DNA of 20,174 nucleotides from a virus. Shown piece by piece: positions 2,194 to 20,043 of this stretch. Location of the stretch: positions 1 through 20,174 of IMG/VR virus record IMGVR_UViG_3300013006_000858. One strand, given 5' to 3'. Made by a program: the position numbers and the translations under genes. The number at the start of each line of letters is the position of its first letter. Within the stretch, counting starts at the first letter, position 1. The notes beneath the pieces were generated by a model. That model made no database searches. It saw nothing but the letters and a program-made list of their open reading frames with translations, and was not told the DNA's origin.

Positions 2194-2880
2194 ATGCTCA
2201 GTATCAAACAACAACGTTTACTGGAACTGTCTCAACAGCCCCTGTTACCCCACACTCACGTTCAATATCTGGAACATCTCAAGGCTCAGGGGGTCAACCC
2301 CCGGGTTGTTTATGATCTGGGTAGTTGTGTGCTACACTGGTATAATGTGGCACATCAAATTTGGCCTGATGCCCAGTATCATGTGCTGGATGCCATGGAC
2401 AGTGCAGAGTTCCTGTATCAGGAGCAGCAGTTACCCTATCACATTGGGGTGCTCAGCAACAGTGATCGCAAAACTGTCACGTTCTGGCAAAATGACTATC
2501 ATCCAGGTGGCAACAGCTATTACAGAGAAAATCCTGAGATCAACCTGGAAGTGGACCAGTATTTCAATGATAGCCACAAGCGTGTTTTGCAGTGTAGCAC
2601 TTTGGACACTATCATAAGTGTGAACCATTGGCCTGTGCCTGATTTTGTAAAAATGGATGTGCAGGGTGCAGAGCAGGATGTTTTGTTGGGCATGACCAAC
2701 ACACTACCCCATGTGCAACATTTGATACTGGAACTGCAAAATGTGGAATACAACAAAGGTGCTCCGCTCAGCCAGCATGTGATCTCCTGGTTGGAGCAAC
2801 GTGGATTTGACTGTGTGGCTCCTTTGTTTAGTAATAATGGTGCTGATGGCGACTATCATTTTACAAGGAAGAGTTCATGA
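2194..2880 (+). CDS. FkbM-family SAM-dependent methyltransferase
   Basis: The 228-residue product has the Rossmann-type methyltransferase layout of the FkbM family. A SAM-loop-like VVYDLGS lies at residues 38-44 (Asp41), and the family signature DFVKMDVQGAEQDVL lies near 150-164 (Asp155, Glu160). FkbM enzymes O-methylate sugars or polyketides, so methylation of a glycan is the likely role. The stop codon overlaps the start of the next gene (ATGA at 2877-2880), and that gene encodes a multi-domain glycosyltransferase, which supports a joint glycan task. The start is uncertain because the only SD-like sequence sits 2 bases from this ATG and inside a small hairpin. The SAM loop is not the canonical GxGxG, as is common in this family. 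The substrate is unknown. Confidence 0.8.
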   Translation: MLSIKQQRLLELSQQPLLPHTHVQYLEHLKAQGVNPRVVYDLGSCVLHWYNVAHQIWPDAQYHVLDAMDSAEFLYQEQQLPYHIGVLSNSDRKTVTFWQNDYHPGGNSYYRENPEINLEVDQYFNDSHKRVLQCSTLDTIISVNHWPVPDFVKMDVQGAEQDVLLGMTNTLPHVQHLILELQNVEYNKGAPLSQHVISWLEQRGFDCVAPLFSNNGADGDYHFTRKSS

Positions 2881-5642
2881 AGATAGCATTTGTAGACACT
2901 CTGGGATTGCCCTATGACGGCAACACCATAAACAATCGTGGATTGGGTGGCAGTGAAAGTGCTGTGATCTATTTGAGTGCAGAGCTGATCAAGTTGGGCA
3001 TGGATGTGACAGTATTTTGTCATTGTAATGCTGATGATGCCAGGCCTGGAGTGTATAACGGAGTCAAATATATACCACTCCCTGAAATAGCCAACCATGC
3101 TTGTGATTTTGATGTGGCCATAGCCAGTCGTAGTGTAGAGACTTGGCTACCCCCGGAATTGCGTGCCAATGTGAACAGCAAAGTGGATCTGAATATTTTT
3201 GATCGTTTACAAGAGCGTGCCCGGTTCAAAGTGCTGTGGATGCATGACACCTTTTGCTATGGCGATCAGGTTGTGGAGCATTTGGTTGTGCATGGTTGTA
3301 TTCATGAGCTGTTTGTGTTGAGTGATTGGCATCTGAGTTATGTGCTCAACTGTGACCACGGTGCTCGTCGCAACTTTGAAGTGCTCAAGAACAAAACTTT
3401 CCTTACTCGCAACGGTGCCAAGAACTGGCTACCCTGGATTGATCCCAGCCAAAAAGACCCCCATCAGTTTGTATATAACAGCAGTGTCAGCAAGGGTATG
3501 GCTCCCTTGCTGGAACAAATTTGGCCACACGTCAAGCAGAACATTCCTGAAGCCAAGCTGAAAATCATTGGTGGCTACTACAGGTTCCGCCCTGAAGATC
3601 CGCCTGATGAACAAGAACAAAAGTGGCGCTTGTTGAAGGACACTTTTGATGGCAATCAGGGTGTTGAGTTCACTGGAATCATTACTCAACAACAGATTGC
3701 ACAGACTCTGGCCCAGAGCAGCCTCATGCTCTATCCTAGTGCATTTCCTGAAACTTTTGGTATCAGCGCACTGGAAAGTCTGAATGCTCTCACCCCATTG
3801 GTAACCTGCAGATTTGGAGCACTGGAAGAGATAGCCATTGACCAAGCCTGTTATAAAATGGACTATGCTATTGCACCCAATGGTTTGTTCCCCAACATAA
3901 ACAGTGAACAGCAGGTCAAAAAGTATGTGGAGTTGGTGTGCTGGGCACACAGCAACAAATATCTGCTGCAACAGAAGCAAAACTTCTGTCGTATTGTTCA
4001 ACCCCTGATTGGATGGGATACGGTGGCCCTTCAGTGGAAGCAACACTTGTGCAAAGTGTCGGGCAGATATTTGTTGTCACATGAATTTGACAAAGTTTCA
4101 CATGCAAAACTTCGCTGGCAGCAAGTGTTTGGTCGCAGATACACAAACCCGGAAGATCATAACACTGTGAGTAAACCACAGCAGCCCATTGTTGTGATCA
4201 CACCCTTTTACAACTGCCAATCATATATTGTAAGATGTATCATGAGTGTGGCCACACAAAGCTACGGGAACTATGTGCATGTGTTGAGAGATGATGCCAG
4301 CACTGATTCCAGTTACCAGGTGGCCCAATCTGTTATTGAAAGCCTGTCTCCTGACATTCAGCATAGGTTTATACTACAAAAAAACACCAGCAATCAGGGC
4401 GCAGTGCAGAATCAGTTTGAGATGTTGGAATATGCAAGGGACAGCCACGGCAGTGATACCATTGTCATGTTACTGGATGGTGATGACTGTTTGGTAAACC
4501 GAAACGATTTGTTTAGTTTTTACAACCAGCTGTTTGATCAAAACACTGAATTTGCGTATGGTAGTTGCTGGAGTCTGGCGGACAATATTCCCCTTGTGGC
4601 CCAGGAATATCCACCCCATGTCAAGCAAGACAAGAGCTATCGAAAGCACTTGTTCAACTGGCTCATGCCCTATACCCACCTGAGAGCTTTTCGTATGCAG
4701 TTGTTCAACACAATCAAGCCACAGCAATGGCAGGATGAAAATCAAAAATGGTTCAGGGCTGGCGGGGACACCAGTGTATTTTACAGTCTGATTGAAGCTG
4801 CTGATCCCTCCAAGGTTCGTGCTGTGCAGGACATTGTCATGAACTACAATGACACAAACCCACTCAATGACTACAAAGTGAACAGCGAAGAGCAAAACCA
4901 AACAGCACGCAAAGTGTTGGGAATGACTGTGCAAGCCCCTATGGTTCCCCTCACATCCCCAGCTGCTCAAGAAAAGCCATCCATGAACATCACACCAGCA
5001 CCAACACCCATGCCTGCACCCACATTGCTTAGAACCAAACAGATACTGATTGGAGTTCCCACAGCACGCTACATTGAAGTGGAAACATTCAAGAGCATCT
5101 ATGATCAGATTGTACCAGCCAACTGTGAAGCTCACTTCCAATACTTTTGGGGTTACAATGTGGAGCAAGTGCGTAACATCATGGTCCAATGGTGTTTGCA
5201 AAACAAGTTTGACTATATGCTCAACGTGGACAGTGACATTGTAATGCCGCCTCATGCTCTGAGCAGGCTCATGGAGATACAGGATGAAAAAACTGCCATC
5301 ACCAGTGGTGTTTATATCCAACGCAAGGAAGGTGTGAAGATACCTGAAGTGTTTGTTCACAATCCCGCCACAGGTGGGCAAATGAACATGCCCATTGAAA
5401 ATGTGCAGGGATCTGATCTCATTGAGGTGGAAGGAGTGGGCTTTGGCTGCTGCCTGGTGCGAACAGATGTATTCCAAGCAGTGGGCAACCCCTGGTTTGA
5501 ATACAGGAGCAGCATTGATTTCAGCAAGGTTGTGAGTGAAGATGTGGATTTTTGTACCAAAGCCAGAGCCAAAGGCTATCGTGTGGTGGTGGACACTGGG
5601 CTAAAACTGGGCCATCTCACCAAAACAACTCTTGTTGTGTAA
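2877..5642 (+). CDS. Triple-domain glycosyltransferase (GT-B + GT2 + second GT-A)
   Basis: The 921-residue protein joins three glycosyltransferase modules. Residues 1 to about 410 are GT-B (GT4-like): an N-terminal MKIAFVDT strand with a GLGGSESA loop, and an EX7E pair (Glu292 and Glu300 in FPETFGISALES). Residues about 435-685 form a GT2-type GT-A domain, starting PIVVITPFYN and carrying LLDGDD (Asp534, Asp536, Asp537). A Pro/Ala/Thr linker follows (about 686-718). Residues about 719-921 form a second GT-A-like domain with a DSD motif (Asp785, Asp787). Such fusions usually build a short glycan by successive transfers. The gene is translationally coupled to the FkbM methyltransferase upstream. 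The target could be a virion protein, host surface glycan or DNA; nothing here decides. All three active-site motifs look intact. Confidence 0.85.
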   Translation: MKIAFVDTLGLPYDGNTINNRGLGGSESAVIYLSAELIKLGMDVTVFCHCNADDARPGVYNGVKYIPLPEIANHACDFDVAIASRSVETWLPPELRANVNSKVDLNIFDRLQERARFKVLWMHDTFCYGDQVVEHLVVHGCIHELFVLSDWHLSYVLNCDHGARRNFEVLKNKTFLTRNGAKNWLPWIDPSQKDPHQFVYNSSVSKGMAPLLEQIWPHVKQNIPEAKLKIIGGYYRFRPEDPPDEQEQKWRLLKDTFDGNQGVEFTGIITQQQIAQTLAQSSLMLYPSAFPETFGISALESLNALTPLVTCRFGALEEIAIDQACYKMDYAIAPNGLFPNINSEQQVKKYVELVCWAHSNKYLLQQKQNFCRIVQPLIGWDTVALQWKQHLCKVSGRYLLSHEFDKVSHAKLRWQQVFGRRYTNPEDHNTVSKPQQPIVVITPFYNCQSYIVRCIMSVATQSYGNYVHVLRDDASTDSSYQVAQSVIESLSPDIQHRFILQKNTSNQGAVQNQFEMLEYARDSHGSDTIVMLLDGDDCLVNRNDLFSFYNQLFDQNTEFAYGSCWSLADNIPLVAQEYPPHVKQDKSYRKHLFNWLMPYTHLRAFRMQLFNTIKPQQWQDENQKWFRAGGDTSVFYSLIEAADPSKVRAVQDIVMNYNDTNPLNDYKVNSEEQNQTARKVLGMTVQAPMVPLTSPAAQEKPSMNITPAPTPMPAPTLLRTKQILIGVPTARYIEVETFKSIYDQIVPANCEAHFQYFWGYNVEQVRNIMVQWCLQNKFDYMLNVDSDIVMPPHALSRLMEIQDEKTAITSGVYIQRKEGVKIPEVFVHNPATGGQMNMPIENVQGSDLIEVEGVGFGCCLVRTDVFQAVGNPWFEYRSSIDFSKVVSEDVDFCTKARAKGYRVVVDTGLKLGHLTKTTLVV

Positions 5643-11092: not shown

Positions 11093-11902
11093 ATGGATGA
11101 TCTAGGCGATCGTCTCAAATCCTATGAGACACGAGAAACTGAGCAAAGGTTTTTACCGGGTGTGCCCATCTATGCACGAATTGATGGGCGCGGCTTTAGC
11201 AAGTTTACAAGGGACATGGAGAGACCTTTTGACGGTCGCATGACCTCTGCCATGATACACGCCACCAAATATTTGGTGGACAAGAGTCAGGCTACCCTGG
11301 GCTATGTGCAAAGTGATGAGATCAGCTTGGCCTGGGCCAACACAGATCACACCAGTGAGCCTTGGTTTGGAGGTAAGATTCACAAGCTCACAAGTGTGCT
11401 AGCAAGCATGGCCACTGTATCATTTGTGGATGGTGTCATCCACAACTTCCCCGACTGGCAGCAGTATTTTAGCCGCATGCCTCACTTTGACTGCCGTGTG
11501 TTCCAGGTGCCCAACCTGGATGAGCTGGCCAACTGCTTTTTGTGGCGCAACCTGGACTGCACCAAAAATGCCATCAGCATGGCTGCTCACCATTACTACA
11601 GCCACGCAGAGCTACAAGGCAAGAGTGGTGCAGAAAAGCAGGAAATGCTGTTCGCCAAAGGGGTAAATTTTAACGATTATCCTAGTGCATTCAAGCGTGG
11701 CACATTTGTCCGCAAGCATTTGGCGCAGCGCGCCTTTGATCCGCAAGAATGGGCATCTATTCCGCTCAACCACAGGCCTGACCTGGGCACGTTGTTGCTA
11801 AGGTCCGAAATGCACGCTTGGGATTTGCCCCCGTTGCAAAAGATCACCAACAGGGTGGAAACTCTGTTCCTCAAAGCTGATCCACAACAAAATACTCAAT
11901 AA
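11093..11902 (+). CDS. Thg1-family tRNA(His) guanylyltransferase / 3'-5' RNA polymerase
   Basis: Thg1 enzymes add nucleotides 3'-to-5', classically G-1 on tRNA-His; Thg1-like proteins also repair 5'-truncated tRNAs. From the ATG at 11093 the product has 269 residues, close to the family length. The metal-binding motifs are clear: IYARIDGRGFSKFT (Asp31, Gly32) and YVQSDEISLAW (Asp75, Glu76), equivalent to Asp29/Gly30 and Asp76 of human THG1. Further family features are the middle FDCRVFQVPN segment and the LWRNLDCTKNAISM helix. I chose 11093 because the in-frame TTG at 11048 lies inside the promoter and AAAGG precedes this ATG. It is a single-gene unit with its own promoter and terminator. Whether it acts on tRNA-His or in general repair is not decidable here. 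Confidence 0.93.
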   Translation: MDDLGDRLKSYETRETEQRFLPGVPIYARIDGRGFSKFTRDMERPFDGRMTSAMIHATKYLVDKSQATLGYVQSDEISLAWANTDHTSEPWFGGKIHKLTSVLASMATVSFVDGVIHNFPDWQQYFSRMPHFDCRVFQVPNLDELANCFLWRNLDCTKNAISMAAHHYYSHAELQGKSGAEKQEMLFAKGVNFNDYPSAFKRGTFVRKHLAQRAFDPQEWASIPLNHRPDLGTLLLRSEMHAWDLPPLQKITNRVETLFLKADPQQNTQ

Positions 11903-12228: not shown

Positions 12229-12987
12229 ATGGCAGCAACAAATGTACTAATGAAGGACGCTATTCAGGACCTGGTCAAGAATGTGACCAGCACTGGATTT
12301 TTTGATAAGATCAAAATCACTTCCAGTAACAAGGGAACAGTGATTGAGGCCATGGAAACCAACAAGCAGGTTATTCTCAAGGCCCGCACACTCAATCCTG
12401 TGCAGGATTGGGAGGGTGAGTTTGGTTTGGCAAATCTCAATCTGCTGGCATCCATTTCAGGCGACAGTGAGTTTACTCACAAGGACAGCAGCCTGGAATT
12501 GATTGTGGAACAAAAGGGCGGGCAAGATGTGCCCACTGAGCTGCACTATACCAACCGCAGCAAGAGCTTTATCAGCTACAGGTTCATCAGCAAGGATCTG
12601 GTGCCTGATCAGCCCAAGTATAACGAGCCAGTGTGGGATGTGGTTGTCAAGCCTGTCAAGTCCAGCATCCAGCAGTTCAACTGGGCAGCGGGCAGCTTGG
12701 GAAGCTATGAGCAATACTTTATCCCCAAGACTGTGGATGGCAATCTCAAGTTCTTTATTGGCGAAGAGAATGCAGCCAGCCAGCGTGGTGGTGTTGTGTT
12801 TGCTGCTGATGTCAAGGGCGAGTTTGACAGTAATCACAAGTGGCAGATTCAACTGCTCAGTCAGGCACTCAAGCTCGTGGGCGAAGCTGATGCAGAACTC
12901 AAGTTCAGTGTCAAGGGCGCAATCCAGCTAACACTAAACACTGGCATTGGTGAATACAGGTATATTTTCCCGGCCAAGATGCGATAA
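12229..12987 (+). CDS. 45: Sliding clamp (T4 gp45 type), DNA polymerase processivity factor
   Basis: The 252-residue protein resembles marine T4-type gp45 clamps. It has FFDKIKITSSNKGTVIEA near residues 23-41, WEGEFGLANLNLLASI in the first domain, the acidic-to-aromatic FISYRFISKDLV middle segment, DGNLKFFIGEE in the second domain, and the C-terminal IGEYRYIFPAKMR. Gp45 forms a trimeric ring loaded by gp44/62; it tethers gp43 and, in T4, activates late transcription. The ETFEDLFSF tail of the polymerase encoded upstream is a plausible partner. The start ATG is 2 bases after the small upstream gene, with AAAGGGA before it. A strong terminator follows the stop. Loader genes are not in this window. 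Confidence 0.9.
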   Translation: MAATNVLMKDAIQDLVKNVTSTGFFDKIKITSSNKGTVIEAMETNKQVILKARTLNPVQDWEGEFGLANLNLLASISGDSEFTHKDSSLELIVEQKGGQDVPTELHYTNRSKSFISYRFISKDLVPDQPKYNEPVWDVVVKPVKSSIQQFNWAAGSLGSYEQYFIPKTVDGNLKFFIGEENAASQRGGVVFAADVKGEFDSNHKWQIQLLSQALKLVGEADAELKFSVKGAIQLTLNTGIGEYRYIFPAKMR

Positions 12988-13040: not shown

Positions 13041-13598
13041 ATGGCCATTGAAAATGAACGCAAACTGCTGCTGGATACCTCCAGAGCACAAGAACTATTG
13101 GCTGATTTTAAAAAGAAAAGGGCTGAGCTTTCAGCCAACTTTTACGACATCACACAAAGCTATCTGAGTGGCAGCGCCCGAATCCGGCATGTTGTGCCTC
13201 ACAGCCAAGCACCAGAGCAGCACATCTTCACATACAAAACCAAAGTGGCCGGCAGCACTGTGGAGATTGAAACCGAAATCAGCACACATGACTATCATAA
13301 ACTTTTTCTAGTGGCCAAGCCAGTGGTTCTCAAAACCCGTGTCAAGTTCTTCCAAGAAGCCTACACTTGGGACATTGATTTTTTTAAACAACCCAAAAAC
13401 GGATCAGTTTATTTGGCCATGGCGGAAGCTGAAATGCCCGAATTCGAAACGGAAACTCCGGATATACATCCTGTGCTTGAACCTTATGCTCTACGATGGA
13501 TTGATGTGGGCGATAAGAGATTCAACAATAAAAATCTAGCCAACATCAAAAAAACACAAGTTTCTGTTCGTGATCTGCTAAAAAATGAAAAACCGTGA
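13041..13598 (+). CDS. CYTH-domain triphosphate tunnel metalloenzyme
   Basis: CYTH proteins hydrolyse or cyclise triphosphates (inorganic triphosphate, thiamine triphosphate, RNA 5'-triphosphate, ATP to cAMP) in a beta-tunnel. The 185-residue product has the signature IENERK (Glu4, Glu6, Lys8), then SARIRH (paired Arg), TYKTKV (paired Lys), EIETEI (paired Glu), WDIDFF, AMAEAEM (paired Glu) and the C-terminal DKRFNNKNLA. All tunnel-lining charged pairs appear present, so it should be active. TAGGAG lies 8 bases before the ATG at 13041; the in-frame TTG at 13020 is inside the terminator and was rejected. No promoter is evident between that terminator and this gene. Its stop overlaps the next gene by 14 bases. 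The substrate cannot be told from sequence. Confidence 0.9.
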   Translation: MAIENERKLLLDTSRAQELLADFKKKRAELSANFYDITQSYLSGSARIRHVVPHSQAPEQHIFTYKTKVAGSTVEIETEISTHDYHKLFLVAKPVVLKTRVKFFQEAYTWDIDFFKQPKNGSVYLAMAEAEMPEFETETPDIHPVLEPYALRWIDVGDKRFNNKNLANIKKTQVSVRDLLKNEKP

Positions 13599-13807: not shown

Positions 13808-14575
13808 ATGGCTGATTATAAAACTATTTGGATATCCGATATACATTTGGGCAGCAGAGGTTGCAAAGCCCATCAACTTTGTAAATTTCTCAAAGATAAC
13901 AACTGTGAAACGCTCTACCTTGTGGGCGATATAGTAGATGGTTGGAGATTATCCAAAACATGGTTTTGGCCTCAATCTCACAGTGATGTTTTGAGAAGGA
14001 TTCTTACAAAAGCGAAACGCGGCACCAAGATTGTGTATGTTGTGGGCAACCATGATGAATTCCTCAGATCCTGGCTCAAACATAAACTGGTAATAGGCAA
14101 CATAAGTATTACAAATCAAGCCACCTATACAGATGTCACAAACCGCAAATGGCTAGTCACCCATGGTGACTTGTTTGATCAGGTCACAAGACATTATCGT
14201 TGGGTGAGTGTGCTGGGTGATCAAGCTTACAACTTGTTGCTGGCTAGCAATGGTCTAGTTCATAGGTTCCGGTCCATGTTTGGATTGGGATACTGGAGTT
14301 TAAGCAAATATATCAAATCACACACCAAGCAGGCAGTAAACTTTGTGTGCAAGTTCGAAGAGCATTTGAGCAAACATGCCAAAAACAATCATGCCCATGG
14401 AGTCATTTGTGGCCACATTCACACACCCACCATCAAACTCATGGATGGAATAGTGTATGCCAATGATGGAGATTGGGTGGAGAGTTGCAGTGCCCTAGTT
14501 GAGACCCTGGATGGAGAATTTCAACTGCTTGTTTTGAATAGTCAAGGCAACATGGACATAGTAGCCACACACTAG
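13808..14575 (+). CDS. plcP: PlcP-like metallophosphoesterase (phospholipase C type, LpxH-related fold)
   Basis: The 255-residue protein has the full calcineurin-like metal site: SDIHLG (Asp11, His13), GDIVDGW (Asp41, Asp44), GNHDEF (Asn81, His82), THGD (His119, Asp121) and CGHIHTP (His203, His205). The segments YLVGDIVDGWRL, WFWPQSHSDVLRRIL, LGYWSLSKYIK, AVNFVCKFE and NDGDWVESC match what I know of the alphaproteobacterial PlcP family more closely than LpxH itself. PlcP removes phosphorylated head groups from phosphatidylcholine or phosphatidylethanolamine under phosphate starvation, leaving diacylglycerol. The next gene starts 1 base after this stop and is Agt-like, the usual partner. The start at 13808 has no clear ribosome site and probably relies on coupling. 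LpxH-type activity remains an alternative. Confidence 0.85.
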   Translation: MADYKTIWISDIHLGSRGCKAHQLCKFLKDNNCETLYLVGDIVDGWRLSKTWFWPQSHSDVLRRILTKAKRGTKIVYVVGNHDEFLRSWLKHKLVIGNISITNQATYTDVTNRKWLVTHGDLFDQVTRHYRWVSVLGDQAYNLLLASNGLVHRFRSMFGLGYWSLSKYIKSHTKQAVNFVCKFEEHLSKHAKNNHAHGVICGHIHTPTIKLMDGIVYANDGDWVESCSALVETLDGEFQLLVLNSQGNMDIVATH

Positions 14576-14576
14576 C

Positions 14577-15581
14577 ATGCGAATTGTAATTGTCACAGAC
14601 ACATGGAATAACATCAACGGTGTAGTCACCACCTTGAAAGCCACTGTCAAAGAGATGGAAGCCCGGGGGCATCAGCTGTTGGTGATAGAGCCCAGTCACT
14701 TTCACACCATTGGCTGTCCAGGATACCCGGAAATCAAATTTGCCTGGAACATCTGGAAAATTTGCAAACTTATCCGCCAATTCAATCCAGACTGTATTCA
14801 CATAGCAACAGAAGGACCACTAGGCTTGGCTGCCAGATTATACTGCAAGATCACCAACAAGCCCTTTAACAGCAGCTATCACACCAAATTTCCTGAGTAC
14901 TTGAAAATGCATTATAACCTACCCATAAGCGTGGGTTACTTTTGGATGCGAATTTTTCATAAATTCAGCCACAGAGTTTTGGTAACAACCGAATCTATGA
15001 AACATGAATTGGAAGCTCGCGGATTCCAAAACTTGATTGTCTGGAACAGAGGAGTGGATAACCAGTTGTTTTCACCTGTGTCTAGGAGCAATCACATAGC
15101 CAGCAAACCTGTCATATTGTGTGTATCCAGAGCCAGTCATGAAAAAGGGCTGGATGATTTCTGTTCCTTACAAACATCAGGAACCAAAATTTTAGTAGGC
15201 GATGGCCCCTACTTGGCAGAACTGAAAAGCAAATATCCAGATGTGATCTACACAGGTTACAAATCTGGATCAAGTTTGGCACATTATTATGCCAATGCAG
15301 ATGTGTTTGTATTTCCCAGCAAAACAGACACTTTTGGAGTGGTCATGTTGGAGTCCATGGCGTGCGGCACTCCTGTGGCTGCCTATCCTGTGACTGGCCC
15401 CAAAGATGTCATACAACCAGGAATAAATGGGTACTTGGACACTGACCTCCACAAAGCAATAGATCAATGCGTAAGCTTGGATCGAACTGTGGTGAGGGCA
15501 ACCAGTGAGCTGTATTCCTGGAAGTCTTGCACTGACATTTTTGAACAGTCACTTATCAAAATATCCTCCACCAACACTTGA
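14577..15581 (+). CDS. agt: Agt-like diacylglycerol glycosyltransferase (GT4 family)
   Basis: The 334-residue GT-B protein starts 1 base after the PlcP-like stop. The N-terminal domain has VTDTWNNINGVVTTL (donor/acceptor loop), GCPGYPEIKFAW, HIATEGPLGLAARLYC, SSYHTKFPEYLK and FQNLIVWNRGVDNQLF. The C-terminal domain has SKTDTFGVVMLESMACGTPVA and YPVTGPKDVI; the first Glu of the EX7E motif is Asp, as I recall for this subgroup. These blocks match the bacterial family that follows plcP in alphaproteobacteria. In Agrobacterium, Agt makes glucosyl- and glucuronosyl-diacylglycerol during phosphate limitation. With PlcP it would convert phospholipid to glycolipid. Sugar specificity cannot be read from the sequence. 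A new promoter overlaps its stop codon. Confidence 0.83.
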   Translation: MRIVIVTDTWNNINGVVTTLKATVKEMEARGHQLLVIEPSHFHTIGCPGYPEIKFAWNIWKICKLIRQFNPDCIHIATEGPLGLAARLYCKITNKPFNSSYHTKFPEYLKMHYNLPISVGYFWMRIFHKFSHRVLVTTESMKHELEARGFQNLIVWNRGVDNQLFSPVSRSNHIASKPVILCVSRASHEKGLDDFCSLQTSGTKILVGDGPYLAELKSKYPDVIYTGYKSGSSLAHYYANADVFVFPSKTDTFGVVMLESMACGTPVAAYPVTGPKDVIQPGINGYLDTDLHKAIDQCVSLDRTVVRATSELYSWKSCTDIFEQSLIKISSTNT

Positions 15582-15606
15582 AATAACACTGATTCTCCGA
15601 TATCTT
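15578..15606 (+). promoter_or_regulatory. Sigma70-type promoter for the PTPS-like / GT / TGT-like unit
   Basis: TTGAAA (15578-15583, 5 of 6), a 17-base spacer and TATCTT (15601-15606, 4 of 6) overlap the stop of the Agt-like gene and lie 25 bases before the next ATG. Confidence 0.5.
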
Positions 15607-15630: not shown

Positions 15631-16008
15631 ATGACTCAAAAGACTTTTGTTTATTGCACCTTCCAGAAAGAAGGTTATCATTATTTCCCAGGTGCTGACA
15701 CCAACCCCACATATGCCACAGGCGATGAATATGATGTGGGCCATCTGGGACTAAGGCATATGCACTACTTCAACTTCAAGGTGTGGGTGCAAGTCAATCA
15801 CAACAATCGTGAGATTGAGTTCATTCAGCTCAGGCGATGGATTGAGAATCTTTACAAGACCAACAGTCTGGAGATGGATCATCAGAGCTGCGAGATGCTG
15901 GCAGAAGCCTTGTATGCAAAGCTGAGTGAGCGTTACCCAGGCATGGAAATTCGTATTGACATCAGTGAAGAAGGCATCAATGGTGCGTATGTTGAGTTCC
16001 AACCCTGA
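15631..16008 (+). CDS. PTPS/QueD-fold protein lacking the usual catalytic Cys
   Basis: I chose ATG 15631 (GGAGAA about 6 bases upstream); a longer frame from 15505 would overlap the Agt-like gene by 77 bases and its extra residues look random. The 125-residue product follows the 6-pyruvoyl-tetrahydropterin synthase / QueD layout. His17, His43 and His45 (RHMHYFNFKV) match the zinc triad; Asp83-His84 (EMDH) lie 40 residues after the first His of the H-x-H, the same spacing as in rat PTPS (His48, His89 region) and QueD. SCEMLAEALYAKL matches the T-x-E-N-h-A helix, and IDISEEG matches the C-terminal Glu strand. Position 37, where the catalytic Cys is expected, is Gly. So it may do a different reaction or bind a pterin or deazapurine. 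Family assignment is by pattern. Confidence 0.6.
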   Translation: MTQKTFVYCTFQKEGYHYFPGADTNPTYATGDEYDVGHLGLRHMHYFNFKVWVQVNHNNREIEFIQLRRWIENLYKTNSLEMDHQSCEMLAEALYAKLSERYPGMEIRIDISEEGINGAYVEFQP

Positions 16009-16123
16009 CATTTAAATCAGTTGTTATCTGATCTGTGCAGCTATTATGAAAAGTTGATCAAGCAGCCTTGCACTGAATCTTATTCTCAACTACACTCATA
16101 ATACAAAGTTCAAGGACAAATCT

Positions 16124-17224
16124 ATGACCAATATCTATATTGTGCCGCTAGAGCGTATTGACAGCCGCTACACGGCACAATGGTACACAAGTATTCCCAG
16201 TGATTTACGCAACACCATGCAATCACGTGGTATCTCCAATGTTCAAGTGGTGAACGTGGATGGTGTGGAACCCACAGTGGACGCAACCACAAGTGGTGCC
16301 TTTTTAAACTTTGCACACACCAACTCCTTCAAAGCTACTCAAGTGGAGGCCATCAGTCACATGTTTGCACGTGGCGACGTCAAGGCTGGTGATGTGTTTT
16401 TGTTTACAGATGCTTGGCACTTTGGAATCACCGCCCTGCGCTACATGAGCGAACTGTTGGATATCCCAGTGGGCATCATGGGAATTTTTCATGCGGGTGC
16501 TTATGATCCCAGCGACATCCTGGGCATGAAGATGAGCAAGCCCTGGCCCTGGCATCAGGAGCGTGCCTGGTATTATGCCTGTGACTATGTGTTTTATGCC
16601 ACTGACTTTCATCGTCAAATGTTCCTCAACAACCTGAACATTCCCTTGGAAGATCAGTATCGTGCTGTGGTGAGTGGACAGCCACACAGTGCCATCATCA
16701 GTCACATGGAACAGGTGACCAGTCAAGCAGGGGTGCAATCTGGTGTGATTTGGCCACACAGGTATAACGCGGACAAGCAGCCCATGATTGCTGAAGATTT
16801 GAGTTCCAGCATGAGCCAGCCCTGGTGCATCACCCAAAAGATGAAGCTCAACAAGCATGAATATTACCAGACTCTTGCTGATCATCGGGTAATGTTCAGT
16901 TGCAGCCTACATGAGAACCTGGGTATCAGTGTCATGGAGGGAGTGTTGGCTGGTGTGATTCCTGTGCTGCCCAATCGTTGCAGCTATCAGGAAATGTATT
17001 TGCCCGAATTCCTGTATCCCAGTGAATGGACTCAGGATTGGAACAATTACCGCAAACACAAGGATGAGCTCATGCAGTTTATCCAACATCGTCTAGACAA
17101 CAGTCATGAGTATCGAGACGCCATGCACAAGCAGACGCAGATTCTTCTACGGGAGTATCTCAATGCTGACGTCATGTACAGATACATGTTGAACTATGTT
17201 GAAACTCACGGCACAACCAAGTAA
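16124..17224 (+). CDS. GT-B glycosyltransferase resembling tRNA-queuosine mannosyltransferase (DUF3524/GTDC1 type)
   Basis: The 366-residue protein has a GT-B C-terminal domain with VIWPHRYNADK (Trp210-Lys218) and LHENLGISVMEGVLAGVIPV (His263; Glu264 and Glu272 as an EX7E pair), then PEFLYPSE. The WPHR-x-x-x-DK block, the YYQTLADHRVMFSCS strand and the P-E-F-L-Y-P ending resemble the animal and bacterial queuosine-tRNA mannosyltransferase family. The N-terminal half (FLFTDAWHFGITAL, GIMGIFHAGAYDPSD) is less familiar. AAGGA lies about 8 bases before the ATG. Flanked by a PTPS-like gene and a TGT-like gene, a sugar transfer to a 7-deazaguanine base is an attractive inference. It could equally be a generic GT4 enzyme acting on DNA, protein or glycan. 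Confidence 0.75.
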   Translation: MTNIYIVPLERIDSRYTAQWYTSIPSDLRNTMQSRGISNVQVVNVDGVEPTVDATTSGAFLNFAHTNSFKATQVEAISHMFARGDVKAGDVFLFTDAWHFGITALRYMSELLDIPVGIMGIFHAGAYDPSDILGMKMSKPWPWHQERAWYYACDYVFYATDFHRQMFLNNLNIPLEDQYRAVVSGQPHSAIISHMEQVTSQAGVQSGVIWPHRYNADKQPMIAEDLSSSMSQPWCITQKMKLNKHEYYQTLADHRVMFSCSLHENLGISVMEGVLAGVIPVLPNRCSYQEMYLPEFLYPSEWTQDWNNYRKHKDELMQFIQHRLDNSHEYRDAMHKQTQILLREYLNADVMYRYMLNYVETHGTTK

Positions 17225-17233
17225 GATTGTAAT

Positions 17234-18886
17234 ATGAAAAAACTCACAAGCCCCAATCCACACCTAGCTAAAACATATGAAAATATGGGGGAAGTGGCTG
17301 GTAAGGATCTATGGACTAGCAATTCCGATTTCGCTGTATTCCTTCCTTCGATCAGCGCCATCTATGCACGCCAACAGAGTGACCCTACCAGCAGAATTCC
17401 TGCTGGACTAAAGGGAGGGCTGCGAGATTTGGACTTTTTGGATCATAAAACCAATCTGTTCTTTTATCCCATCTCGCTCTACTCCAGCGGCCACAGTGTG
17501 TGGGATCTGGAGCAGAGTGATGTTGTGGAAAGCATGGTACAAAAGAGGGCCAAGGACAAGACTGTGATCATTGGAGACAGTGGTGGTTATCAGATTGCCA
17601 CTGGTGTGCTCAAATGGCCTTGGCAGAAAAAGCCCAACCAGGACGATGCCAGCTGGGTCAAGGACAAAGATGCCATTCGTATGCAAATTTTGCGCTGGCT
17701 GGAACACTCATGTGATTACAGCATGGTGCTGGACGTGCCCACTGGCAGCTTGCTCAAGTTTGGTAACGACCCGGTGACTGGAGAAAACTTGCATCCTGGA
17801 GTCAAGAATTTCCGTGACTGTTTGAACAGCAGCATGGAAAATCATGACTTCTTTATTAGGAATCGCAAGGAAGGTGCCACCAGGTTCATGAACGTGCTTC
17901 AGGGTCGTAACCAGGAGGAAGGTGATGTGTGGTGGGATGTGGTCAAGGACTTGCCTTTTGAAACCTGGGCCTACTCCAACGTGCAGGCCAGCAACTTTGC
18001 CATCAATTTACGACGTATCATTCTACAGAGGGACGGCAAGTATTTGGATGGGCGTGACTGGATCCACTATCTGGGTAATGGCAAGATCAAAATGGGATGT
18101 GCCCTTACAACGCTCCAGAGAGTGTGGCGCAAGCATATCAATGAGAAGGTCACGCTCAGCTATGATGCTGCTAGCCCGTTTGTGAATGTGGCCAAGGGTA
18201 ACATTTACTATAGCTGGGAACTTAGCCCACAGAATATTGCGTTCAAGGGTGGTAACATTCCCGACGACAAGGCGCTCAAGGGTAATCCACAGTTGATCCA
18301 GGAATGGATCAATGCTCGCAACCTAAAATGGGCACGTCGTGAAAGCGAGATCTGCAAAGCAATCACCCTGGGTGATGTATGCTGCAAGGGCTATGAGGAT
18401 CTAAAGCACAAGAAGGTGGCTTTCACAAAGAAAGAGCTGGAAAGTGATTGGTATCCACTGACACCTGAAGGCAGGGCAGGTGACACGTTCCGTTACAGTG
18501 ATGCCTACAAGGAATACATGACCCATCATGGTGATCATGGTGGTTTGTTTGACTGGACTGCTAATGAGTTTGATGACGAACGTAACAAGTATCAGGTCAA
18601 GTGGCCCAGCAGCATGGACGGCATGAGCTATGTGCTGCTCATGAATCACAATGTGGAATTACACATTGATGCAATTCAGCAAGCATGCGCTGCACAGGAC
18701 TTGCCCATCAGCCAAGCCAAGGAAATACTCACACCTGATGTGCTGGAGTTTGCCAGTGGACTTTGTGAACAGATCCTCACCAGTGAAAAGCCCATGACAC
18801 TGATTGACAAGCACCAGAAGATGCTTTGTAATTTGAGTGGAATGGATGCAGACAACTCCATCAGCATGGATTTGGGTCTGCTGTAA
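17234..18886 (+). CDS. TGT/DpdA-superfamily base-exchange enzyme, long form
   Basis: TGT enzymes swap guanine for a 7-deazaguanine in tRNA; DpdA homologues do so in DNA. The 550-residue protein has IIGDSGGYQIATG (Asp115 to Gln120, the DSGGFQ motif), MVLDVP (Asp167), NVLQGRN (Gln223, the V-x-Q-G motif), a GKIKMGCAL glycine loop and LSYDAASPF (Asp311, at the position of the nucleophilic Asp in FDCVLPT of bacterial TGT). So the barrel active site looks complete. Bacterial TGT has about 375 residues; this one has about 150 extra C-terminal residues of unknown role, with a possible Cys/His cluster (GDVCCKGYEDLKH). It starts 9 bases after the GT gene. DNA versus tRNA as substrate is not settled by sequence. 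Confidence 0.82.
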   Translation: MKKLTSPNPHLAKTYENMGEVAGKDLWTSNSDFAVFLPSISAIYARQQSDPTSRIPAGLKGGLRDLDFLDHKTNLFFYPISLYSSGHSVWDLEQSDVVESMVQKRAKDKTVIIGDSGGYQIATGVLKWPWQKKPNQDDASWVKDKDAIRMQILRWLEHSCDYSMVLDVPTGSLLKFGNDPVTGENLHPGVKNFRDCLNSSMENHDFFIRNRKEGATRFMNVLQGRNQEEGDVWWDVVKDLPFETWAYSNVQASNFAINLRRIILQRDGKYLDGRDWIHYLGNGKIKMGCALTTLQRVWRKHINEKVTLSYDAASPFVNVAKGNIYYSWELSPQNIAFKGGNIPDDKALKGNPQLIQEWINARNLKWARRESEICKAITLGDVCCKGYEDLKHKKVAFTKKELESDWYPLTPEGRAGDTFRYSDAYKEYMTHHGDHGGLFDWTANEFDDERNKYQVKWPSSMDGMSYVLLMNHNVELHIDAIQQACAAQDLPISQAKEILTPDVLEFASGLCEQILTSEKPMTLIDKHQKMLCNLSGMDADNSISMDLGLL

Positions 18887-18894
18887 GGAGAATC

Positions 18895-19329
18895 ATGGAA
18901 GACAATCTCAGGGCAAGTGTTACGGAAGTTGTGGGACAGATTTTGGAGTTGCGCCAATCTGTGGCCTCCAACAAGGAGCAGATCAAGGCACTAAGGCAGC
19001 AGATCAACGCATTGGACCAACTAAACGATCAAATACAAAACGATATTGATCAACAACGTAGGCTTTTGGATTATGTGCTGGAAACAGGCGAGGACCCTGT
19101 GGCTGCCAGCTTGCAGTTCAGTCAAAAAGAGATTGAGCGTAAAACCAAAGAGGCCCAGTCTCAACTTCTGGGTGCAGTAGGGTCAGACTACGACATTTTT
19201 TTTGATAATCAAACCCATTATCCCGATATGGGACCAGACAAGCTAGCTGCGGCACGGGACATTTACAAAAGCCGCGTGGTGGATGCCATGCGGCGCGGCC
19301 TGGCCAACACCACAAAGGACAAAAAATGA
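18895..19329 (+). CDS. Coiled-coil protein A of a tandem paralogous set
   Basis: TAAGGAG, overlapping the previous stop, gives a strong ribosome site for this ATG. The 144-residue product begins with about 50 residues of coiled coil (ILELRQSVASNKEQIKALRQ and on). Then comes the shared motif LLDYVLETGEDPVAASLQFS (residues 57-76, Pro68), and a C-terminal region with DYDIFFDNQTHYPDMGPDKL and a helical basic end. The motif recurs with the same Leu/Val-to-Pro spacing of 11 in the next two genes, so the three are likely paralogues. The function is unknown; oligomeric accessory or virion-assembly proteins are possible. Its stop overlaps the next start (ATGA). Confidence 0.75.
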   Translation: MEDNLRASVTEVVGQILELRQSVASNKEQIKALRQQINALDQLNDQIQNDIDQQRRLLDYVLETGEDPVAASLQFSQKEIERKTKEAQSQLLGAVGSDYDIFFDNQTHYPDMGPDKLAAARDIYKSRVVDAMRRGLANTTKDKK

Positions 19330-19772
19330 AAACACTCAATTCCTTGATAAAAGAATTTCGCAAAAAGATCAAGCAGGCAAATAGCCATCAATCCCGGATC
19401 ACAAATCTGGAACAAAAAAGAGAGGCAATGAATCAACAGCAGCATCAGAGAAACTCTGAAATTGCTCAGATGAAAGAGCTGATTGATTGGTGTGTGTTGA
19501 CTGGCGAACAACCAACTGAAGCCGTGTTAAAACACACTAGGGAACAGATGAGAAATCAATTGCGAAGTGGCACAGTCTACAACATGCCCAGCATTGCAGG
19601 TGCCGGCTGGCACGCCACAATGGTGGGTCATTCAGGAGCATCCACCCCTATGGGATCACAATCCACTCTCACCCTGAGTGCCAGCCCTGTGACTATTTCG
19701 TGTGGGGGCGTGGGTGGAGGATCCACAACATATACCAGTTCTGTAACTCACAGTGGCAAAACCAGTGTATGA
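19326..19772 (+). CDS. Coiled-coil protein B with a Gly/Ser/Thr-rich tail
   Basis: It starts within an ATGA overlap with protein A. The 148-residue product has a basic N-terminal helix (SLIKEFRKKIKQ), a coiled coil to about residue 50, and the shared motif LIDWCVLTGEQPTEAVLKHT (residues 52-71, Pro63). The remaining 70 residues are low complexity: GAGWHATMVGHSGAS, many Ser/Thr, and SCGGVGGGSTTYTSS. The tail is unlike those of its paralogues and resembles a flexible, surface-exposed segment. The function is unknown. The 3' end overlaps the next gene by 20 bases in another frame. Confidence 0.7.
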   Translation: MKTLNSLIKEFRKKIKQANSHQSRITNLEQKREAMNQQQHQRNSEIAQMKELIDWCVLTGEQPTEAVLKHTREQMRNQLRSGTVYNMPSIAGAGWHATMVGHSGASTPMGSQSTLTLSASPVTISCGGVGGGSTTYTSSVTHSGKTSV

Positions 19773-20043
19773 AGTAAAAACAGAGGAACTGCTGCCTCTG
19801 GTTGAGGAGTGGCGTCTGTTACGTTTGGAAGCCAACAATCTTTCCCAACAAGTGGACGAATCCAGGGACAACTTCCTGGAACTTCAAAAGAAGTTGGACA
19901 AATTAAATCATGAACTGGCCAACTTAAATGCAGTTATCAATTATTGCATTGATAATGATACGGACCCAGTTCATGCCAAGCTCAGCTTGAGCTCCAGGTC
20001 CACTACAAACAACAACATAAAATCCAACTGTAATACATCATGA
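19753..20043 (+). CDS. Coiled-coil protein C of the tandem set, GTG start
   Basis: The frame has no ATG near its N-terminus, and GTG at 19753 overlaps protein B by 20 bases. The 96-residue product is a coiled coil (EEWRLLRLEANNLSQQVDES and on) followed by the shared motif VINYCIDNDTDPVHAKLSLS (residues 61-80, Pro72), and a short Asn/Ser/Thr tail. The motif keeps the Y/W-C-[VI] core and the Pro spacing of protein B. The start is the least certain part; a second in-frame GTG occurs at 19765. Its stop overlaps a tiny downstream ORF (ATGA). Confidence 0.65.
   Translation: MAKPVYEVKTEELLPLVEEWRLLRLEANNLSQQVDESRDNFLELQKKLDKLNHELANLNAVINYCIDNDTDPVHAKLSLSSRSTTNNNIKSNCNTS

Follow-up and report, generated by a model that had tools for sequence, protein, structure and literature searches.

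Three consecutive genes of the virus record IMGVR_UViG_3300013006_000858 (the window, 20,174 bases long) likely specify a pathway in which a base inserted into phage DNA by a DpdA-type enzyme is glycosylated by a glycosyltransferase (GT) resembling QTMAN, the tRNA enzyme that acts on queuosine. The window encodes a family-B DNA polymerase, and the three open reading frames follow one another at the places given for them in an earlier interpretation made from the DNA letters alone (the sequence-only reading):

15631 to 16008, plus strand: PTPS/QueD-fold protein (gene 1; 125 amino acids, phrog_17812), assigned by its AlphaFold2 fold and homologue alignment.
16124 to 17224, plus strand: GT4-type (GT-B) glycosyltransferase (gene 2; 366 amino acids), assigned by its model, motifs and a profile comparison with QTMAN.
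17234 to 18886, plus strand: divergent TGT/DpdA-type base-exchange enzyme (gene 3; 550 amino acids, group A), assigned by motifs and profile comparison.

The proposed role of gene 3 is to replace guanine in DNA with a 7-deazaguanine derivative, and that of gene 2 to glycosylate the inserted deazaguanine. That the set could insert a deazapurine and add a sugar to it had been suggested in the sequence-only reading and is supported here by the association of the genes and the profile match of the GT to QTMAN, with DNA rather than tRNA as the presumed target and the choice of sugar equally conditional.

Conservation of the gene set is far beyond chance. From IMG/VR the best 80 of at least 572 GT relatives and the best 80 of at least 573 PTPS-like relatives were kept, and within 6 kb the GT-seeded loci hold the PTPS-like gene (73 of 80), DpdA (66 of 80), FolE (61 of 80) and QueE (45 of 80), with at least one other 7-deazaguanine gene in 79 of 80; the 80 PTPS-seeded loci in turn hold the GT in 78 cases and DpdA in 72. 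The pattern is broader than close relatives, as the cultured phages demonstrate. When annotated phages were searched by protein, 13 records contained DpdA, 22 the GT and 27 the PTPS-like gene, and the set occurs in unrelated cultured phages (PA5oct/Paride, X1, ACP17, Phosso and BUCT-ZZ01) in the following arrangements:

Paride (Pseudomonas phage): DpdA-GT-PTPS.
X1 (Xanthomonas phage): GT-DpdA-PTPS-QueE.
ACP17 (Acidovorax phage): QueD-FolE-...-DpdA-GT-PTPS-QueE.
Phosso: PTPS-GT-...-FolE-...-QueE, with DpdA elsewhere.
BUCT-ZZ01: the full set.

The same GT and PTPS-like genes accompany both DpdA groups described below (A and B); phiST, Ahp1, RHph_I1_18, Bakedbeans and D479 carry the PTPS-like gene together with FolE and gave no GT match. 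The sequence-only reading had proposed a search for further synthesis genes, of which FolE and QueE were located just downstream: a contig 100% identical to the window's last 1585 base pairs (bp) continues into FolE 35 bp past the window's end and then into QueE. FolE is present in 18 of 20 records. QueC was not found in the relatives searched, a model based on CAjan detecting none in the seeded IMG/VR loci and the Pfam QueC model giving only weak ATP-pyrophosphatase-like matches in 49 viral contigs, the longest of 462 kb (control CAjan, E 1.7e-76). Because these 49 contigs contain no clear QueC, the base probably derives from 7-carboxy-7-deazaguanine (CDG) and not from preQ0.

The model of the GT (pLDDT 94.5) adopts a GT-B fold of the GT4 kind, with sucrose-phosphate synthase (top, Z 26.5), BshA and MshA as structural neighbours. 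The WPHR-x3-DK motif by which the sequence-only reading had recognised a glycosyltransferase is present, and all 69 homologues keep R213, K218 and E272; E264, which is Glu in 63 of the 69, forms with E272 an EX7E pattern (E264-x7-E272) of the kind seen in retaining enzymes. The comparison with QTMAN, which the sequence-only reading had suggested doing by structure, was made by profile instead. Against an alignment (A12) of PF12038 (QTMAN_N) members taken from bacterial genomes the GT profile matches end to end (residues 1-356; 98.4%, E 4.4e-15), whereas the controls, the window's own GT4 family and a second GT4-like protein from BUCT-ZZ01, reach 1.0% and 4.1%, and the QTMAN profile itself gives 16% against the window GT4 set. 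Judged by profile, QTMAN is a nearer relative of the GT than the GT4 proteins used as controls.

This relation also bears on the proposal that the GT is unconnected with the base and decorates virion proteins or host surface sugars, the DNA carrying plain 7-deazaguanine. Such glycosyltransferases are common in phages and the window has two others (2877-5642 and 14577-15581), but both lie outside the conserved set, deazaguanine genes accompany the GT in nearly every GT-seeded locus, across unrelated phages, and the association recurs in bacterial loci where little else is conserved; together with the kinship to QTMAN, these observations make an unconnected GT quite unlikely. The GT4 gene at 14577-15581 forms with an LpxH-like metallophosphoesterase a pair (13808-15581) directly before the PTPS-like gene, which is found in L009 and is taken as accessory because it is absent from the relatives L001, L004 and L005.

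Gene 3 displays D115-SGG-x-Q, D167-x-P, Q223-G224, LGxG (280-283) and SYD311 motifs, with D115, D167, G224, LGxG and D311 invariant in 10 group-A sequences and Q223 kept in 9 of the 10. Group A comprises the window, Paride and Phosso, and group B comprises X1, ACP17 and BUCT-ZZ01. Its description as TGT-like in the sequence-only reading is borne out by a chain of profile comparisons, from gene 3 to group B (92%, E 6e-7) and from group B to E. coli TGT (85%, E 7e-6, through DSGG, FDE, QG and LGVG motifs), from which a TIM-barrel fold is predicted. For gene 3, no informative name came from Pfam, NCBIfam, PHROGs or PADLOC; Pfam likewise misses the accepted DpdA of phage CAjan, so that a missing Pfam match is no evidence against a DpdA. 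No profile link was obtained between groups A/B and the short group C (phiST, Vibrio phage D479 and Aeromonas phage Ahp1), or between group B and the CAjan DpdA. HMMER searches of PDB sequences with the DpdA, the GT and the PTPS-like protein returned nothing useful.

An alternative substrate for gene 3 is tRNA, in which case the TGT-like protein would modify tRNA during infection and the GT would glycosylate that base, as a phage version of mannosyl-queuosine. The nearest GT family is a tRNA enzyme, the TGT fold belongs mainly to tRNA enzymes, and a homologue of tRNA-His guanylyltransferase is also encoded in the window; yet none of the 17 sequences of groups A and B has the CxC..C zinc motif that a bacterial tRNA TGT should carry, which mildly favours DNA over tRNA as the DpdA substrate. 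Furthermore, three TGT-like lineages accompany a complete synthesis pathway, like the phages shown to modify DNA (Hutinet 2019, PMC6884629), and the bacterial carriers own a normal tRNA TGT as well (13 of 13 genomes). The distances among DpdA proteins track those of a clamp-like protein and the polymerase (r 0.78 and 0.76), perhaps merely by vertical descent. Weighing these points, we consider a tRNA target unlikely. The tRNA-His guanylyltransferase (Thg1) homologue (11093-11902; PF04446, E 4e-30) adjoins the polymerase region and is kept in near relatives. The clamp-like protein is a conserved 252-amino-acid product of 12229-12987 with a homologue annotated as sliding clamp in phage Phosso, and distances within this family track polymerase distances closely (r 0.90).

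For gene 1 the PTPS/QueD fold given in the sequence-only reading is retained, but the identity as QueD is not. Its AlphaFold2 model (82 homologues, mean pLDDT 94.2) aligns best with Pyrococcus PTPS (Z 12.2, root-mean-square deviation of 2.0 Å over 93 residues) and closely with E. coli QueD (Z 11.6, 2.2 Å over 108 residues); direct profile comparison of the family with phage QueD was weak (34%, E 4e-4), and the fold decided the assignment. All 82 homologues keep H17, H43 and H45, which fit a putative zinc site, and E113, which fits a putative pterin-binding Glu. The position of the QueD catalytic Cys (Cys27 in E. coli) is however occupied by Leu39, and by Leu in all 82 homologues, for which reason the protein was not filed as QueD; the residue following Asp83, the catalytic His in QueD, is variable among homologues. 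A separate PTPS-family gene scored above cut-off in 9 of 10 phage records searched, and none was found among the window fragments. The loss of the Cys, together with these separate genes in most complete phage relatives, indicates a QueD-fold enzyme with another job, and the PTPS-like protein is probably not QueD. Since its gene accompanies QueE and no QueC, CDG is the likely substrate, and the protein probably acts on CDG as a candidate decarboxylase. A possible counterpart is DpdL, a CDG decarboxylase reportedly predicted by Cui et al. in 2023.

A genome scan recovered 24 further loci, many from Alphaproteobacteria, with the GT beside DpdA in most. In Magnetospirillum a PTPS-like gene and a QueD-family gene join the GT and DpdA, and in others the neighbour of the GT is a protein resembling a transporter (Vut_1/YhhQ family, with scores from weak to moderate). 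QueC and QueE were not found in the genomes of Aurantimonas, Devosia, Sulfitobacter, Shimia and Thalassobius, which are possibly incomplete. These patterns suggest that the GT and DpdA form the invariable core and that the base is supplied by synthesis or perhaps by import. The pairing also speaks to the idea that the acceptor of the GT is a small molecule in free form, either the deazaguanine base or a pterin, which would be glycosylated ahead of DpdA or for another purpose, as by a tetrahydrobiopterin glucosyltransferase. Tetrahydrobiopterin glucosyltransferases are among the fold neighbours of the GT, and pterins are made by relatives of FolE and QueD; those enzymes nevertheless rank below many other GT4 enzymes, and the GT and DpdA remain paired even where FolE and the PTPS-like gene no longer accompany them; this suggests the DpdA product as the GT substrate and renders a free acceptor quite unlikely. 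Some alphaproteobacteria perhaps modify their own DNA with this pair. Directly 3' of DpdA, rhodobacteral loci encode an unnamed protein of about 590-610 amino acids (L222:12567-14321, L224:12596-14425, L221:9212-10987) with no Pfam match (L222, L221) and no PADLOC match (L222, L224). Contigs binned as archaeal genomes (L205, L209 and L210) bear the phage-type operon and are probably misbinned phage contigs.

Glycosylation of the DpdA-inserted base in phage DNA, the interpretation we favour, could proceed as follows. FolE, QueD and QueE would convert GTP to CDG, and with no QueC the phage would not make preQ0; the PTPS-like protein would process CDG, perhaps by decarboxylation, and DpdA would exchange guanine in replicated DNA for the processed deazaguanine base. 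The QTMAN-like GT, as a presumed retaining GT4 enzyme, would then draw on a nucleotide sugar to glycosylate the modified base, most likely once the base is in place, much as QTMAN treats queuosine in tRNA. A candidate bond is an ester to the carboxylate, or a link to a group made by another enzyme such as the conserved 175-amino-acid family described below. The bulky sugar would protect the DNA from restriction and other nucleases, in the manner of T4 glucosylation.

Several observations weigh against this scheme. The acceptor is uncertain: CDG has a carboxylate to offer and 7-deazaguanine lacks a suitable hydroxyl, whereas in queuosine it is the cyclopentene-diol that QTMAN uses. Pfam PF12038 (QTMAN_N) gave no match to the GT at E<=1, which is why the GT is regarded as a sister family of QTMAN and not a member. 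The PTPS-like gene is missing in 5 of 13 alphaproteobacterial genomes, possibly incomplete, and its absence, together with the Vut_1 gene beside the GT in the loci examined from these, means that different systems may use different bases. The correlation between GT distances and DpdA distances is only moderate (r 0.39), weaker than is seen with the replication genes, and shows nothing beyond shared descent. Retaining only the best 80 relatives per seed over-represents close relatives. Finally, phages carry sugar genes for other purposes too.

Such sugar genes are frequent in these operons. Clusters of sugar-nucleotide or related dehydrogenases contribute a gene to 74 of 152 distinct environmental loci, and sugar-type genes lie between the outer deazaguanine genes in 90 of 121 cases, against a mean of 71 and a maximum of 86 in 1000 shuffles. 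Cluster representatives include an NAD-epimerase, a UDP-glucose dehydrogenase, a DegT aminotransferase, a phosphomannomutase and a nucleotidyltransferase fused to a mannose-6-phosphate isomerase domain, a repertoire that fits a sugar differing between phages. With less assurance than for the window itself, we favour the broader view that there is a widespread class of phages with glycosylated 7-deazaguanine DNA, made without preQ0 and completed by a DNA-acting relative of QTMAN, the sugar varying through operon genes, and that the alphaproteobacterial GT-DpdA pair perhaps serves the same purpose on the bacterial DNA.

Other genes recur beside the set. An unnamed family of 170-180 amino acids adjoins the PTPS-like gene in 95 of the 152 distinct loci (for example L107:5453-5965), gave no Pfam, NCBIfam or PHROG match and is possibly another pathway enzyme; ACP17 may hold a divergent relative. 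A xanthine/guanine phosphoribosyltransferase-like gene, present in the operon in 65 of 152 distinct loci (for example L131:7765-8325), could recycle guanine freed by DpdA. Some phage operons include a queuosine-precursor transporter of the YhhQ family (L184:12152-12772, L164:5391-5990).

The single promoter that the sequence-only reading had placed ahead of the three genes finds no backing. A sigma-70-like site lies upstream of gene 1 (15578-15606), but a scan of the region returned 8 such sites against 11.5 in shuffles, no excess over chance, and gaps of 49 bp and 115 bp precede genes 1 and 2. Elsewhere in the window, 2194-5642 encodes an FkbM-type methyltransferase followed by a 921-amino-acid protein (2877-5642) with several glycosyltransferase regions. 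The product of 13050-13598 begins with ENERKLL, like a CYTH triphosphatase signature, and matches only PHROGs of unknown function. A run of small coiled-coil-like genes, of which at least the first two are paralogous, lies 3' of dpdA (18895-20043).

If correct, the scheme would unite T4-style glucosylation with the deazaguanine pathway in a new layer of protection against restriction, would imply a QTMAN-like enzyme able to work on DNA, and would offer a testable cause for defence evasion by jumbo phages such as PA5oct and Paride. To our knowledge, the 7-deazaguanine bases of DNA carry only small groups at C7 (cyano, amido, aminomethyl, formamidino, carboxy, methylaminomethyl or formylaminomethyl) or none. 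A literature search whose reach did not extend to Cui et al. 2023 or a 2024 MMBR review found no report of glycosylated deazaguanine in phage DNA. Iyer 2021 (PMC7824862) had already pointed out a deazaguanine system in PA5oct, and the passages found on it name no GT.

7-Deazaguanine modification of phage DNA through FolE, QueD, QueE, QueC and DpdA is established (Hutinet 2019, PMC6884629). The present system shares with that pathway the TGT kind of guanine exchange, FolE and QueE, and its occurrence in large DNA phages, and most of the complete relatives also have a PTPS-family QueD gene; it differs in having no QueC in the relatives searched, an additional PTPS-like protein and a glycosyltransferase, and DpdA groups without a Pfam match. 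With QTMAN (GTDC1/DUF3524, PF12038) the phage GT has in common the end-to-end profile match, the HR..DK and E-x7-E regions and the GT4 kind, whereas it is missed by Pfam QTMAN_N, sits with DpdA, has a presumed DNA substrate and is accompanied by sugar genes that vary between phages. The PTPS-like protein resembles QueD and 6-pyruvoyl-tetrahydropterin synthase in its fold, three zinc-type His and a Glu near the C-terminus, and departs from QueD in the replacement of the catalytic Cys by Leu and in existing besides separate PTPS-family genes. DpdL, a possible counterpart of this family, would suit a pathway lacking QueC, and the PTPS-like gene is also found near FolE in Cellulophaga phage phiST; we know of no link between DpdL and a glycosyltransferase. 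A further analogue, by function, is the glucosylated hydroxymethylcytosine of T4, likewise a sugar on a modified phage-DNA base against restriction, from which the proposed system would differ in its base, in the installation of that base after replication and in the family of its glycosyltransferase.

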